From contig JAJCXM010000026.1 of NCBI GenBank assembly GCA_029263455.1, forward strand, positions 186,001-250,000: a stretch of 64,000 nt of DNA. The letters are read 5' to 3'. Position 1 is the stretch's first letter; the number at the start of each line of letters is the position of its first letter. The position numbers were made by a program, and so were the translations under genes. Shown here in pieces: positions 36,551 through 56,991 of the stretch. The DNA is from Holophagae bacterium. Lineage in GTDB: Bacteria; Acidobacteriota; Holophagae; Acanthopleuribacterales; Acanthopleuribacteraceae. The notes beneath the pieces are model-generated. The model ran no database searches. It saw only the letters and a list, made by a program, of their open reading frames with translations, and was not told the origin of the DNA.

Positions 36551-37864
36551 ATGCCCGACATTGACCCCGGAAAAGAAAAGCCCAGCGTTGCAAATAAACA
36601 GTCCGCGTCTTGGCCACGTCATGATGAACCAGCATCAAACGACGACCCCATGATAGGGGCAACTATTGGTGATAAGTACATCGTTGAACGTGAACTTGGA
36701 CAAGGTGGTATGGGATTAGTTTATCTGGTGCGCCACAAGACACTAGATAAGAAATTTGTCATAAAGGTTATCCGCATTGCCGCTGTCGAATCAGACGGTG
36801 AGGTCGCGCTACATCGCTTCAAAAGAGAAGCACGCGCCATCGCTCGTATCGAGCACCCCAACGTGGTTAGCGTCGTTGATTATGACGTTGTCGACGGCAA
36901 GCCATTCATTGTCATGGACTACATCGATGGCACTGATTTGGGTGAGTTTGTGAAGCGAGATTTTCCCAACGGCATGCCTATCCAGATATTTTCTCGGTTA
37001 TTCGGTCAAATGTGTGATGCCATGGAGGCCGTGCACGCCGAAGGTATTGTCCACCGTGATTTGAAGCCTAGCAACATCATGGTCCAGCAAACGAAGAGGG
37101 GTCCGGTTGTCAAGATTCTTGATTTTGGGCTCGTACATATTGCGCATGGCCAATTAGAAACGACTCGACTGAAACTGACTGGCACGGGACAGCTGATGGG
37201 CACGCCCATGTACATGGCGCCCGAACAATGCCGAGACCAAGAAATCACAAGCCAAACAGACATCTATGCACTGGGATTACTGGGCTACGAAATGCTTACG
37301 GGTCTACCGCCTTTCCATGGCTTCAATTTTTTTGAACTCATCAAAAAGCAGGTCAAAGACCCGCCAGAACCTCTTAAAAGTAAACGCGAAGACATACCCG
37401 ACAACATTGCTGCAGGCATAGAAAAGGCCCTCTCAAAACCAGCCAATGAACGTCACGAAACCATGGCTGATCTTAAATCAGCATTGGGTGTACTGACAGA
37501 AGAAGACTCGTGGGCCAGCTCCTCTTTCCCCGTGGTCACGAAACAGCAACTTGCAGCAATGGCTCAAGCTCAGCGACCCTGGTGGGAAGAATACCGCTGG
37601 CCACTATTAGTCATTATCCTCGCCATCGTGGCTTTGCTGGTCATGTTGTTTATGGGCGACAATGAGCAAACGGGCAAAAGCGTGCAGATGGATTCGACGC
37701 CGATTATTGAAGAGACTTGGGTCAACGAGCTAATTGCCCATGAATCTAACAGAAACAAACCAAACGTCGTTCATTTTCCGTTTGCGGAGGGGCGTGTTCA
37801 TCAAGTCCCATTACCAATCAGTTTGCAACCCGATCCTTACATAGCGACTTTCGACAACACTTAG
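36551..37864 (+). CDS. Membrane-anchored Ser/Thr protein kinase (PknB-like)
   Basis: A 437-residue Hanks-type kinase. Kinase domain ~43-310: P-loop GQGGMGLVY, Lys in FVIKVI, catalytic IVHRDLKPSNIM, DFG and MYMAPEQ; all catalytic residues look intact. One transmembrane helix lies near residue 349 (WPLLVIILAIVALLVMLF), followed by a ~65-residue extracytoplasmic tail without PASTA repeats. The ribosome site is weak. It lies 131 bp upstream of pspA on the same strand but is separated from it by a sigma-54-type promoter. Confidence 0.9.
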   Translation: MPDIDPGKEKPSVANKQSASWPRHDEPASNDDPMIGATIGDKYIVERELGQGGMGLVYLVRHKTLDKKFVIKVIRIAAVESDGEVALHRFKREARAIARIEHPNVVSVVDYDVVDGKPFIVMDYIDGTDLGEFVKRDFPNGMPIQIFSRLFGQMCDAMEAVHAEGIVHRDLKPSNIMVQQTKRGPVVKILDFGLVHIAHGQLETTRLKLTGTGQLMGTPMYMAPEQCRDQEITSQTDIYALGLLGYEMLTGLPPFHGFNFFELIKKQVKDPPEPLKSKREDIPDNIAAGIEKALSKPANERHETMADLKSALGVLTEEDSWASSSFPVVTKQQLAAMAQAQRPWWEEYRWPLLVIILAIVALLVMLFMGDNEQTGKSVQMDSTPIIEETWVNELIAHESNRNKPNVVHFPFAEGRVHQVPLPISLQPDPYIATFDNT

Positions 37865-51842: not shown

Positions 51843-53171
51843 ATGACTCAGACAGCAATCTTCTTGTTATGCACACTTACGATTCAGGCCCAAGAAACGC
51901 GTTTCCGATTTGCCATTGAATCCGACATGCATTACCGCGACTCCAAGCACGCTGAATTCCCGATTCCATTTCCCTTCCCACCCGAATTCCTTCCGGTAGG
52001 CGACACAAACGGTTCCCTTGAGACGGTTGAGGCAGGGACCTTCTTCGAGACATCTCGGTTCTCACTCTTTGCGACGGTTGAACGTGACCTATGGACAGCA
52101 CACGCCAAAGTCGACATTATCGATATTTACGACCGCAACCCCACATCAAGCGATCGCGAATGGGATCTGGACGAGTTTTGGGTCAGATACGGCACCGAAT
52201 ATGAGCCCGGCGAGCTGCCAACCGAGCGCGGGTACTACGTAAAGCTAGGCAAGTTCGGCAAGTTTGAGCGACAAGACGACCGTCACTTGATTAGCTACGG
52301 TTTGGTTGGCACATCATTCAACCGATTTGAAGATGCTGGTTTGGAAGCAAACTTTGACGTCACACCTAATTTCTATATCAAGGCTAGTTACACAACAGGT
52401 AACCCTGTGTTTATTCGCGACCCCAACGCCTTAGCTGGCGATAATGGCGCTCCGACACATAACCCATTCATCAACCCATTCCCAGATCCACCTCTAAAGA
52501 GCGGTATTGTGTTGCTATATGACGCAGAAATCGAAGGCCCAGACTTTGATAACGCAGAGACTGGGCTTGGTCTTGGCTTTAGGTTTGGTGACGATGCCGG
52601 TCAACGTGTTTTTAATGGTTTGATTTCTTACTACGAACGGGATTTGGCTGACGAAGTGGAACTTCGCGGCACGTTCTACCACGGCGACCTTGACCTGCTG
52701 CGCGGTGTCGACGAATTCAATTTACCTGGTCTACCGATAAATGGACGTTCAAAAGAAGAACTAACTGCCACCTTCTGGCTTTACTTCGACGATGCAACCC
52801 TATTCCTTCAAGCAGTCGATAGCGACGTGGCCGGGCTCGAACGTAAAGGCTACGAGGGTGAATTCTCATGGACCTTCAAGTTGCCCCTGTGGTGGGCCTT
52901 CAACGAAGCACAAATCTTCCCTTCCATCACCCCAGTTCTACGTTATTCAAAAATTGATTCTGGATTTGTAGGCGATTTGGCTACTTACCCGGCTCCTAGC
53001 GTTTGGTGGAACTGGAAGAAGCTGGATATTGGCGTATCCGCCCGTCTGTACCGCGGTTGGCGTTTAACGGTTGAATATGCCGATAACCAATTCCTGCGAG
53101 GTAGCAATTGGGAGCACAACGACGAATACCTGGCTACCGTTAGATGGCGGATGTCCAGTGATCAACGATAG
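51843..53171 (+). CDS. Predicted outer-membrane beta-barrel (porin-like) protein
   Basis: A 442-residue protein with a short signal peptide (MTQTAIFLLCTLTIQAQ) and strands alternating hydrophobic and polar residues throughout, with aromatic belts and a final strand EYLATVRWRM typical of outer-membrane barrels (aromatic/hydrophobic C-terminal strand). It contains acidic loops and a Pro/Phe-rich segment (FPIPFPFPPEF) near the start. No sequence family is recognised beyond a porin-like fold. GGAGGC is three bases before the ATG. The next gene starts ten bases after the stop, so it is operonic with the cupredoxin protein and the kinase. Confidence 0.7.
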   Translation: MTQTAIFLLCTLTIQAQETRFRFAIESDMHYRDSKHAEFPIPFPFPPEFLPVGDTNGSLETVEAGTFFETSRFSLFATVERDLWTAHAKVDIIDIYDRNPTSSDREWDLDEFWVRYGTEYEPGELPTERGYYVKLGKFGKFERQDDRHLISYGLVGTSFNRFEDAGLEANFDVTPNFYIKASYTTGNPVFIRDPNALAGDNGAPTHNPFINPFPDPPLKSGIVLLYDAEIEGPDFDNAETGLGLGFRFGDDAGQRVFNGLISYYERDLADEVELRGTFYHGDLDLLRGVDEFNLPGLPINGRSKEELTATFWLYFDDATLFLQAVDSDVAGLERKGYEGEFSWTFKLPLWWAFNEAQIFPSITPVLRYSKIDSGFVGDLATYPAPSVWWNWKKLDIGVSARLYRGWRLTVEYADNQFLRGSNWEHNDEYLATVRWRMSSDQR

Positions 53172-53181
53172 GAGCGTAACC

Positions 53182-54576
53182 ATGCAAATTCGCGGATTGT
53201 GGTTAATCATTGCAATGACCAGCTTAAGTTACGCTGGCAGTATTGAAGGTAAGATAACCGCTCCCAACCTTGAGACGGTTCCAACAGGTGCTGTCGTTTT
53301 TGTTGAGTTACTAGATGGCGAACCCTCAGCTTACGTGATAGGCATCAAGGACCGAACGTTTATCCCTCAGGTCGCCATTGTCCCAAGAGGAGTGGCCGTC
53401 GAATTCCATAACAGCGGCAACATAGCCCATAACCTTTACGCCCGCAGCGGAGCCAACACTTTTGTTGGCGGACGCCTTGATCCGGGCGAACGTGAACGCT
53501 TTACATTTAAGGAAACAGGCTTGGTGGAAGTCCATTGCAAGGTTTATGGAGACATGAAAGGGATCGTGCTGGTGCGAGACCGTGTCGCATGGACAGATGT
53601 CGCCGCCGATGGCAGTTTTAGACTAAGCCAATTAGCACCCGGTGTTTATCGATTAGGCGCATGGGTTCCCGGATACCCATACATAGAACGTCAAGTTACC
53701 GTCATCGCCCATGACAAAGCCACCATCCATCTGGCTTACGACGCGCCATACACTCCACCTTCACCCCCAGTTGTGGTGGCGCCTCTAACGAGGCCCCAGG
53801 TCAAAGAGGCTGTCGCAGATGTACCTAAACCTGAAGTGGTTACCGTGGAGCAAGAGCAAGCGCACACTCAAGCGGAACCCGAGTCAGTGGCCATCAACAA
53901 AGAACCAGAAACTTCAGAAGAAGTAGAAAGCACTCAGCTAGTTGCTGAAGTAGCCAAACCGACCCCAGAAACGCCTAGCACAGGGACACTGGTGGGCCAG
54001 ATCTCCACCTCAGGCGACGCCGCCGGCGACCCCATCGTGGTATGGCTAACAGGCTCAAACCTCACAGCACCTTCACAAGTTAATAATCGATTTGAAATCG
54101 TGACCAAGAATAAGCAGTTTGTTCCCCATGTTTTGGCTGTTCCAAAAGGAGCCAAGGTTCACTTCCCAAACTCAGATCCCATCATCCATAACGTCTTTTC
54201 GGTGTCTGGTGCAAATGCATTTGATGCCGGTCGATATCCCGAGGGCCAAGGCGTCTCCCATCAGTTTGAACATGAAGGCTTAGTCAAGGTCTTCTGCAAC
54301 GTACACCACGAAATGAACGCCTACATCATGATTGCCGACACACCCCATATCGCTTATGTAGGGCCTAACGGAAAATTCCAATTTCAAAATCTATTACCAG
54401 GTGAATACAGCATTCAAGCTTTTCATCCTCATGGCAAATTAGTGCAGGAACAGGTTAGAATCGTCGCAGCACAAACTGCGAACGCGCAGTTAAGCTTGTC
54501 CCTCAAAGAGAAACGCATCGCCCATCGCAACAAAATCGGCAAACGATATAAGCGAGCCAATTCGGAGGCATACTAA
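53182..54576 (+). CDS. Periplasmic protein with two cupredoxin-like domains
   Basis: A 464-residue protein: signal peptide (LWLIIAMTSLSYA), a first cupredoxin-like domain (~20-185) plus carboxypeptidase-regulatory-like strands, a Pro/Glu/Val-rich linker (~190-280), and a second copy (~285-450). The second copy has the type 1 copper ligand set His-Cys-His-Met in DPIIHNVFS and CNVHHEMNA. The first keeps His (NIAHNLY), Cys and Met, but CKVYGDM lacks the second His. AGGAG lies seven bases before the ATG. Similar domains appear in methylamine-utilisation-like and plastocyanin-like proteins. It ends two bases before the kinase gene. Confidence 0.8.
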   Translation: MQIRGLWLIIAMTSLSYAGSIEGKITAPNLETVPTGAVVFVELLDGEPSAYVIGIKDRTFIPQVAIVPRGVAVEFHNSGNIAHNLYARSGANTFVGGRLDPGERERFTFKETGLVEVHCKVYGDMKGIVLVRDRVAWTDVAADGSFRLSQLAPGVYRLGAWVPGYPYIERQVTVIAHDKATIHLAYDAPYTPPSPPVVVAPLTRPQVKEAVADVPKPEVVTVEQEQAHTQAEPESVAINKEPETSEEVESTQLVAEVAKPTPETPSTGTLVGQISTSGDAAGDPIVVWLTGSNLTAPSQVNNRFEIVTKNKQFVPHVLAVPKGAKVHFPNSDPIIHNVFSVSGANAFDAGRYPEGQGVSHQFEHEGLVKVFCNVHHEMNAYIMIADTPHIAYVGPNGKFQFQNLLPGEYSIQAFHPHGKLVQEQVRIVAAQTANAQLSLSLKEKRIAHRNKIGKRYKRANSEAY

Positions 54577-54578
54577 AT

Positions 54579-56525
54579 TTGAGTTCGTTACGCCACAAAG
54601 TCTGGCTCAGCATCACTGGCATTGTGGTTTTGTTACTTGCCGGCGTGGGATTTGTGTTTGAGCGATCGGCGCGTAGCACCGCAGACCGTGTCATTGTGCA
54701 CGGACTGGAACGAGCCAAGCTGACCATTTCCAATTACGAACGAGATGTGCGAGCGCGCCTTGAATCGGTGAATGCATACATAAGTGGCAATAGCTATTTC
54801 AAAGCTTATATGGCCGAAGCAATCGAGTCTGGCGCCAATCAATCGTTACTAGATCAGTTCGACGAAATAAAACGCTTCGCCAAGTGCGACTTCATGGTCG
54901 TCACCGACGCAGAGGGCACCATTGTGGTTTCCACGGCCACGGTTGAAGGTCGTTCCGAGACACTGCTACTCGAATCGCTCGAGTCCTTTGGGGCAGGTGG
55001 CGAATCAGTGAGTGTACTAGCATTTGGATCCGCACTTTTTCATGTTGTTATGAGCGAAATAGCCGTTGGCGAAGCCGTATATGGTTACGTGGTTATTGGT
55101 TATCGAATCGATGATTTGGTGGCAAAACAATTCTCTGAATTGACCGACTGCGGTATTGCATTTGTTCAACTAGACACATCGGCTTTAATCAGTGCTGCCT
55201 CGTTTCCTGATCACCTCAACCAAGTAGACAGACAACAACTAGCCAGTGATTTCTCAACGCTCGTCCCAAACCAAGTTTCAGAGATCGTTTTGGACGGCGA
55301 ACGTTTTAAAGCAATTACAGGAGCTCTTGTCGCCAACACGGGTACTGACGTTGGCCGCTATGTAGCCATCAGATCAATCGATCGCGAGATGGGCCCTTTT
55401 CACCGCATGATCAGGTCTGCCATGATCCTAGGAGCGATTGCATTACTCATCCTCATCCCACTCAGTTTTTTTGTTTCTGGCGGCATCATTCGTCCTTTGT
55501 CAAACCTGACTGCGGTCGTCGATGGCTTACGCCAGGATCAGTTCGAGGATCAAGCAATTGACGTCAAGCGAAATGATGAGATTGGTGTGTTGGGACGTGC
55601 ATTTACCAGCTTAGTCAAGGAGTTGAGAGAACAGCGTGAGTTGATTGACTTTTTGGAAAAGGCGGCTCAGAAAACGGTTGTCGCTGACCCGCAACCCGAT
55701 ACGCCTAGTGGCGGAACCCTAAAAGAAAACACCATTCTCAGTGGCCGATACAAGATACTTGAAGTATTGGGAAAAGGTGGCATGGGTCAGGTCTACCGTG
55801 CTCATGACATGACCCTGGATGAAGTCGTAGCACTCAAGACTTTGTATATCGACGATCCTGCGCTGGTTGAAACCCTAAAAACGGAGACTAAATTGGCGCG
55901 TCGCGTGACGCACCGCAACGTCGTTCGCACATTTGACTATCACGTCATGCAGGGTCTTCAGTTTGTGACTATGGAATATGTGCAGGGTCGCACGTTACGC
56001 CAGGCTCAACGCGGTGTCGACCAACTACCGGTTGCCATCGCAAACAGAATCATACGTCAAGTCTGCGCAGGTCTTCACGCCGCCCACGAAGCTGGGATCA
56101 TTCACGGCGACGTAAAGCCGGACAATGTCATGATCGACAATCGTGGTGTCGTTAAAGTGATGGATTTTGGAGTGGCACGCATCGCAAAAAAAGAGAAGTC
56201 AGAACAAGCCTATATCACGGGTACACCGATATATATGGCTCCCGAACAGATTATGGGTCAACCGATGGATGCCAGGACCGACCTTTATAGCGTTGGCGTC
56301 ATGATGTTCCAGGTATTTGTAGGTCGGTTGCCATTTCAAGGTGAAACACCCACCCAGATATTTCATGCCCACTTGCATCAGGATGTTCCACGCCCGACCC
56401 AGTCCAACCCTTCTATCTCAAGTGAGTTAGAGTTGGTCATCATGAAAGCCATGAGCAAGAAGCCGTCCGAGCGGTTCCAGTCTCTGACACAACTTGAGGC
56501 CGTTCTCTCCGAAATGTCTAGTTAA
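54579..56525 (+). CDS. Transmembrane HAMP-linked Ser/Thr protein kinase receptor
   Basis: A 648-residue receptor. Helix ~9-28, a ~245-residue periplasmic sensor of the CACHE type (SGNSYFKAYMAEA, TDAEGTIVVSTA, YGYVVIGYRIDDL), helix ~279-299, HAMP (IRPLSNLTAVVDGL ... RNDEIGVLGRAF), a linker, then a Hanks kinase from ~385: GKGGMGQVY, VALKTL, IIHGDVKPDNVM, DFGVARI and MAPEQ. Catalytic Lys, Asp and DFG are present; the Arg of HRD is Gly, as in some active bacterial kinases. The overall plan is that of a sensor histidine kinase with the output domain replaced by a Ser/Thr kinase. Start TTG with GGAGG ten bases upstream. Confidence 0.9.
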   Translation: MSSLRHKVWLSITGIVVLLLAGVGFVFERSARSTADRVIVHGLERAKLTISNYERDVRARLESVNAYISGNSYFKAYMAEAIESGANQSLLDQFDEIKRFAKCDFMVVTDAEGTIVVSTATVEGRSETLLLESLESFGAGGESVSVLAFGSALFHVVMSEIAVGEAVYGYVVIGYRIDDLVAKQFSELTDCGIAFVQLDTSALISAASFPDHLNQVDRQQLASDFSTLVPNQVSEIVLDGERFKAITGALVANTGTDVGRYVAIRSIDREMGPFHRMIRSAMILGAIALLILIPLSFFVSGGIIRPLSNLTAVVDGLRQDQFEDQAIDVKRNDEIGVLGRAFTSLVKELREQRELIDFLEKAAQKTVVADPQPDTPSGGTLKENTILSGRYKILEVLGKGGMGQVYRAHDMTLDEVVALKTLYIDDPALVETLKTETKLARRVTHRNVVRTFDYHVMQGLQFVTMEYVQGRTLRQAQRGVDQLPVAIANRIIRQVCAGLHAAHEAGIIHGDVKPDNVMIDNRGVVKVMDFGVARIAKKEKSEQAYITGTPIYMAPEQIMGQPMDARTDLYSVGVMMFQVFVGRLPFQGETPTQIFHAHLHQDVPRPTQSNPSISSELELVIMKAMSKKPSERFQSLTQLEAVLSEMSS

Positions 56526-56529
56526 TGAA

Positions 56530-56991
56530 ATGAAATTCGTTTCACGATTTTTCATGTTGGTCGCCGTCATTTCTGTCGTCGAAATGTGGCTGTTGATCGA
56601 GGTTTCGGCTCGGCTCGGTCTGGCATGGACGATTGCGGGTTGTGTATTGACCGGTGTCGTAGGCGGGGCGCTTGTCCGTCAAGAAGGCATCAAAACTCTG
56701 ATGGACATTCAAAGAGTAGCGGCACAAGGGCGCGTGCCAGCACAAGAATTAGTTGCGGGCGCGATGTTGTTCGCCGTAGGCGCGTTGCTGGTCACGCCGG
56801 GTTTTGTGACTGACTCTCTGGGTTTCTTGGTTCTAGTACCTGGAATCCGGAGAAGCCTCGCTGCTTATTTACTGGATTGGTTTGCCGCGCGACCGAAGAA
56901 AGTCCATGCGGGCGAAGTAGTCATCGAGGCACAAGCTCGTAATCCAACGAGCGACCAACCCCTAATTCACAACGAAGACGATAAAAGCTAG
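56530..56991 (+). CDS. fxsA: FxsA-family membrane protein
   Basis: A 153-residue inner-membrane protein with four hydrophobic segments and the FxsA landmarks VEMWLLIEV, GGALVRQEG and LLVTPGFVTDSLGFLVLVPGIRR. E. coli FxsA counteracts phage T7 exclusion by F, but the general function is unknown. It begins four bases after the kinase stop and may be co-transcribed with it. The tail is acidic and polar. Confidence 0.88.
   Translation: MKFVSRFFMLVAVISVVEMWLLIEVSARLGLAWTIAGCVLTGVVGGALVRQEGIKTLMDIQRVAAQGRVPAQELVAGAMLFAVGALLVTPGFVTDSLGFLVLVPGIRRSLAAYLLDWFAARPKKVHAGEVVIEAQARNPTSDQPLIHNEDDKS

Follow-up and report, generated by a model that had tools for sequence, protein, structure and literature searches.

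The locus encodes a porin-like barrel, a cupredoxin and a receptor kinase

Within the window, as we call the whole 64,000-nucleotide stretch of Holophagae DNA that was analyzed, we identified a predicted operon of three forward-strand genes for a barrel, a cupredoxin and a receptor (Table 1). The open reading frames confirmed the gaps of 10 and 2 bases reported in an initial annotation made from the sequence alone. Another species of the same genus has the trio in conserved order, with 58–65% identity across the three proteins. Four bases past the kinase lies the gene of an FxsA-family membrane protein (56530–56991), which also adjoins the kinase in the sister species; as far as we saw, members of this family lie outside the module in other genomes. 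The window holds another Ser/Thr kinase gene (36551–37864), whose 437-aa product has its Pkinase domain close to the N-terminus.

Table 1. Genes and domains of the predicted operon (window coordinates).
Feature	Position	Strand	Remarks
Porin-like outer-membrane β-barrel with signal peptide	51843..53171	+	442 aa; ~16 strands predicted; no Pfam model
Exported tandem cupredoxin/CarboxypepD_reg protein	53182..54576	+	464 aa from an ATG with RBS; mechanical ORF longer
Cupredoxin domain 1	53329..53574	+	Degenerate copper site: H83, C119, Tyr122 replacing His, M125
Cupredoxin domain 2	54037..54327	+	Full amicyanin-like type-1 ligands H336, C372, H375, M378 (C-x2-H-x2-M)
CarboxypepD_reg-like β-sandwich, C-terminal	54316..54498	+	
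C-terminal tail	54517..54573	+	H-x-N-K-x-G-x-x-Y...Y, conserved
Membrane receptor, TM - double Cache - TM - HAMP - Ser/Thr kinase	54579..56525	+	648 aa; TTG start after GGAGG
Periplasmic double-Cache sensor	54669..55403	+	Model pLDDT 89.6
HAMP domain	55473..55631	+	
Hanks-type Ser/Thr kinase domain	55749..56480	+	HGD replacing HRD; catalytic residues K420, D511, N516, D529 intact

Pfam matches to dCache_3 (2.5e-7; 31.0 bits, above the gathering score of 25.7), HAMP and Pkinase (1e-50) bore out the proposed succession of a CACHE-like sensor, HAMP and a Ser/Thr kinase in the receptor. The protein is not of the two-component type, for it matches Pkinase alone and neither HisKA nor HATPase. The NCBIfam model closest to its kinase domain is the PASTA-type PknB, at 303.6 bits and below the cut-off of 450. 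Unlike PknB, the window kinase has no PASTA repeats and carries its sensor as an N-terminal Cache module followed by HAMP. Integrative models of bacterial receptors were the top matches overall of the sensor model, and the best match among crystal structures was LuxQ (3c38; TM-score of 0.65, normalised by target).

The exported protein encoded by the second gene matches Cupredoxin_1 and CarboxypepD_reg twice each, and its two units are joined by a Pro/Glu-rich linker. The two cupredoxin domains described initially were both recovered, but a complete type-1 site is confined to domain 2. By its ligand set, domain 2 is a predicted type-1 (blue) cupredoxin, a designation that domain 1 fails because Tyr122 occupies the position of the second His and leaves the copper site incomplete. 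Domain 1 is equally degenerate in the sister species, and most homologues outside the window's genus have a single cupredoxin domain. The H-C-H-M set is invariant across 35 aligned homologues and present in 138 of the 139 loci described below. Elsewhere in the genome of the window, a membrane urate oxidase (Urate_ox_N; L035:5997–7595, contig C3) has a C-terminal part that matches the cupredoxin/CarboxypepD_reg query, and a related cupredoxin/CarboxypepD_reg protein (L036:7358–8071, contig C14) is encoded amid genes for putative terminal-oxidase subunits.

The barrel sequence had no match in Pfam, NCBIfam or a PDB sequence search. However, an AlphaFold2 model built from 14 homologues (pLDDT 74.7, pTM 0.78) comprises about 16 long strands that run up to the C-terminus, and Foldseek retrieved the OprB/OprP/OprO porins as its closest structures (E 4e-12). 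The model agrees with the earlier call of a barrel and makes the protein, which has a signal peptide, a predicted porin of the 16-strand type.

The cupredoxin and the receptor are conserved neighbors

We examined the conservation of the neighborhood in 80 loci from a scan of GTDB genome contigs and in a further 40 from Acidobacteriota and 20 from Gammaproteobacteria, sampled down the match lists. The loci were picked by similarity rather than at random, some genomes were reached twice, and genes were called automatically, with domain-weighted calling for the GC-rich Geothrix-like loci. A dCache-HAMP receptor was encoded within three genes of the cupredoxin in 116 of the 139 loci with a called cupredoxin and directly beside it in 105, an architecture found in none of the 1,153 other genes of the sampled loci. 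Where at least two genes were available on each side (125 loci), the receptor was directly adjacent in 100 and directly downstream on the same strand in 98, with a median gap of −11 nt. Loss of the gene order in relatives had been named at the outset as an argument against a dedicated system; the order of cupredoxin and receptor is instead kept across several phyla, including Acidobacteriota, Gammaproteobacteria, Gemmatimonadota and others.

A reciprocal search started from the sensor. The Pfam model PF14827 proved too weak for this purpose, with no match at threshold in the own genome even though hmmscan detects the domain, and was replaced with our own profile of the sensor and HAMP (A7). 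With the A7 profile, 149 Acidobacteriota genomes yielded 54 strong matches: at least 41, matched by hand, lie within ~5 kb of a cupredoxin, 6 are in genomes or places without a cupredoxin at the threshold used and 7 were not scored. Because at least 41 of these 54 sensors have a cupredoxin so near, the A7-type sensor subfamily and this cupredoxin family are close to obligate partners. The association between cupredoxin and receptor is solid and broad, and a literature search of open-licence papers retrieved no description of it.

Receptor outputs are exchanged around a constant cupredoxin

The output domains of the 116 receptors differed widely, comprising a Ser/Thr kinase (61), a cyclase-like region plus kinase (19), GGDEF-EAL (13), a histidine kinase (12) and an adenylate/guanylate cyclase (6). 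Together, the two Ser/Thr kinase types make up 80 of the 116 and outnumber every other form in the sample. The seeds used detected no output in the remaining five, two of which (L201 and L209) are HD-GYP receptors by Pfam. HisKA/HATPase receptors are encoded at L130, L190, L192, L194 and L195, the last three of which have complete trios, and trios that combine GGDEF-EAL with DUF3034 occur at L139, L224, L227, L230, L234, L235 and L237. Another contig of the own genome carries a second pair, a cupredoxin and a dCache-HAMP-cyclase 3 bases apart, and so does the sister species. The initial annotation had suggested looking for such swaps with the barrel and cupredoxin in place. Histidine kinase, GGDEF-EAL and cyclase domains do take the place of the kinase while the cupredoxin stays; a barrel is often kept as well, from varying families.

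Output exchange can be observed directly among these receptors, and the cupredoxin tree gives a measure of its frequency. Output type changes at least 9 times on the tree, or 14 times when long and short kinases are separated (shuffled mean of 54 for the 14-change scheme), although few deep branches are well supported and the starred branches force just 1 or 2 changes per type. In most of the long kinases (870–970 aa), HAMP and the kinase domain are separated by ~250 residues with resemblance to a class III cyclase. The metal-binding Asp motifs of the cyclase survive in L129 (7355–9988) and are lost in most other long receptors, as in the degenerate (pseudo)cyclases of L113 and L058. From these sequences we infer that a cyclase receptor gained an added kinase and that its cyclase degenerated and in some cases, the receptor of the window among them, was lost.

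The C-terminal tail of the cupredoxin varies with the partner. The motif H-x-N-K-x-G-x-x-Y is present in 76 of 80 kinase-coupled cupredoxins, 5 of 12 coupled to a histidine kinase and 3 of 6 coupled to a cyclase, and is absent from all 13 GGDEF-EAL-coupled and all three HD-GYP-coupled proteins (counting L214, which was assigned by tree position rather than Pfam). The tail could be a docking element.

Other genes accompany some of the pairs. DUF3034 and the cupredoxin-EAL pair have a gene for a group 1 truncated haemoglobin as neighbor (L139:5471–5911 and L141:4291–4854), which hints at a gas or redox stimulus. At Thermoanaerobaculia-type loci (L058:5656–6741 and upstream, L087, L090, L093, L096 and L110), a gene for a LuxE-like acyl-protein synthetase is divergent from the cupredoxin-kinase pair, and L058 also has a LuxC-like protein.

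The barrel is a replaceable part

Of 396 Acidobacteriota genomes, 21 encode the window barrel family. The cupredoxin occurs in 20 of these 21 and in 221 of the 396 overall (co-occurrence p 6e-5, ignoring phylogeny). This distribution does not bear out the objection, raised in advance, that the first two genes might be common without a signalling gene. The barrel lies within 3 kb of the cupredoxin in 7 of the 21 genomes (chance about 2e-12). In Sulfidibacter, Acanthopleuribacter and one relative, the cupredoxin and kinase genes are adjacent and the barrel is located elsewhere in the genome.

Barrels are also often found near the cupredoxin-receptor pair in other loci, but they come from different sequence families. 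A Porin_5-like protein is encoded 3′ of the kinase in many Lysobacterales-type loci and a few acidobacterial ones, a separate family is found in Gemmatimonadota and histidine-kinase loci, and DUF3034 in GGDEF-EAL loci; these barrels were called by a signal peptide, the lack of TM helices, an aromatic C-terminus and a sub-threshold Porin_5 match rather than from structures. The three-gene neighborhood sought in other genomes recurs in its cupredoxin-receptor part (adjacent in 105 of 139 loci), but not with a fixed barrel. The barrel is a replaceable part and the constant core is the cupredoxin and the receptor.

A cupredoxin as candidate input subunit of a Cache receptor

LuxQ does not bind its autoinducer itself but reads the periplasmic protein LuxP. 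LuxQ-LuxP is thereby the nearest known parallel to a Cache receptor with a protein partner as its input: there too, the gene of a dedicated periplasmic partner lies beside that of a double-Cache receptor, the very one that gave the best crystal match to the window sensor. The partner in the window is, however, a cupredoxin rather than a protein of the periplasmic-binding (sugar-binding-type) fold, its output is a Ser/Thr kinase reached through HAMP instead of a histidine kinase, and a porin gene is attached. Operon-encoded envelope proteins also control an inner-membrane sensor in the QseE-QseG-QseF and YfiB-YfiR-YfiN systems, the receptor of the latter being a HAMP-GGDEF protein, but their envelope subunits are not homologous to those described here, have no copper site and serve different outputs. 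In the former, QseG binds the periplasmic loop of QseE, an example of envelope-protein control of a sensor kinase (PMC6075780). Because of the LuxQ-LuxP precedent and the control of QseE by QseG, we favor the cupredoxin as the input subunit.

Specifically, we propose, with a probability of roughly 0.58, that a double-Cache-HAMP receptor with an exchangeable output, here a Ser/Thr kinase, has the cupredoxin as its dedicated input subunit in the periplasm, and that the porin admits the stimulus. The proposal draws on sequence comparisons, namely the gene association, the intact type-1 ligands, the Cache/HAMP/kinase architecture and the exchange of outputs. The porin-like barrel could serve as the channel through which this stimulus, ionic copper or some small redox-active solute, enters the periplasm. 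The copper occupancy or oxidation state of the cupredoxin would then alter its docking on the Cache sensor, probably via the CarboxypepD_reg domain and the conserved tail. HAMP would pass the change to the kinase, leading to the phosphorylation of cytoplasmic targets in what we take to be the direction of regulation.

The genes could also be co-regulated without any contact between their products, a reading that we consider unlikely though the strongest of the alternatives. In that case, the cupredoxin and the porin would form a periplasmic pathway for electron transfer or uptake, and the receptor would regulate it upon sensing a small ligand with its own Cache domain. Electron carriage is indeed the usual role of cupredoxins and some EAL-type operons include a truncated-haemoglobin gene, yet no oxidase or cytochrome gene recurs among the neighbor families checked, which include one molybdopterin-oxidoreductase family in 7 loci. 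Cache domains usually bind small molecules, as do most of those in the sensor's PDB match list. The sampled loci contain no cupredoxin-receptor gene fusions, and a mirror-tree correlation as high for cupredoxin and kinase as for cupredoxin and sensor does not single out the sensor as the contact. On the other hand, output type changes repeatedly while the cupredoxin stays, and the receptor has the cupredoxin as its immediate neighbor much more often than it has the barrel.

Less probable still is a copper-homeostasis operon, in which the cupredoxin would buffer or deliver copper and the receptor would act as a copper alarm. Such a function would suit the intact type-1 ligands and has a parallel in the direct binding of Cu(II) by the CHASE4 sensor of a GGDEF-EAL protein of P. 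aeruginosa, reported in a 2026 paper that does not mention a cupredoxin (PMC13277305). Against it, the recurring neighbor families checked include no copper ATPase, CopZ or multicopper oxidase, with an HlyD/CusB-like membrane-fusion family in 5 loci. Moreover, the copper of a type-1 site typically serves redox chemistry, not storage. That three unrelated genes share one transcript by chance is very improbable, despite the separate barrel of Sulfidibacter and Acanthopleuribacter and the continuation of the operon into fxsA, and is refuted for the cupredoxin and the receptor by an adjacency in 105 of 139 loci and several phyla versus none among 1,153 other genes.

Implications for envelope sensing

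A census of dCache_3 proteins, the family of the window sensor, counted one Ser/Thr kinase among 883 members and mentions no cupredoxin partner (Upadhyay et al., 2016; PMC4822843), compared to 80 kinase-coupled receptors among the 116 of our similarity-picked sample. A survey from 2005 of the domain architectures of bacterial kinases makes no mention of HAMP (PMC1262709). Relatives of the cupredoxin are annotated in Caballeronia and Comamonas as a "methylamine utilization protein" beside EAL-domain proteins; they share the cupredoxin-CarboxypepD_reg fold and adjoin a dCache_3-HAMP-GGDEF-EAL receptor but, unlike the window protein, have no conserved tail and are coupled to a different output. 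DUF3034 is close to the cupredoxin-EAL pair in Caballeronia, and Novosphingobium has an equivalent set under another annotation. The name "methylamine utilization protein" carries no functional evidence.

The recurrence of the cupredoxin-receptor pair with exchanged outputs suggests a widespread envelope-sensing system. More tentatively, and at slightly less than even odds, these proteins may represent a class of trans-envelope receptors that has not been described before, one whose sensor subunit is a blue-copper protein in place of the usual solute-binding protein. Kinases, cyclases and c-di-GMP enzymes, each able to stand in for the others, would in this manner read copper loading or redox state in the periplasm of Acidobacteriota, Gammaproteobacteria, Gemmatimonadota and others. 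Little is established about how Gram-negative bacteria sense the redox or copper state of the periplasm and pass it on to Ser/Thr kinases or second messengers, and a conserved pair whose output was swapped several times offers a natural experiment. To our knowledge, few bacterial Ser/Thr kinases with an N-terminal sensor have a known stimulus. If correct, our proposal would provide an input for kinases of this type and a function for the "methylamine utilization protein" family, DUF3034 and several unnamed porins.
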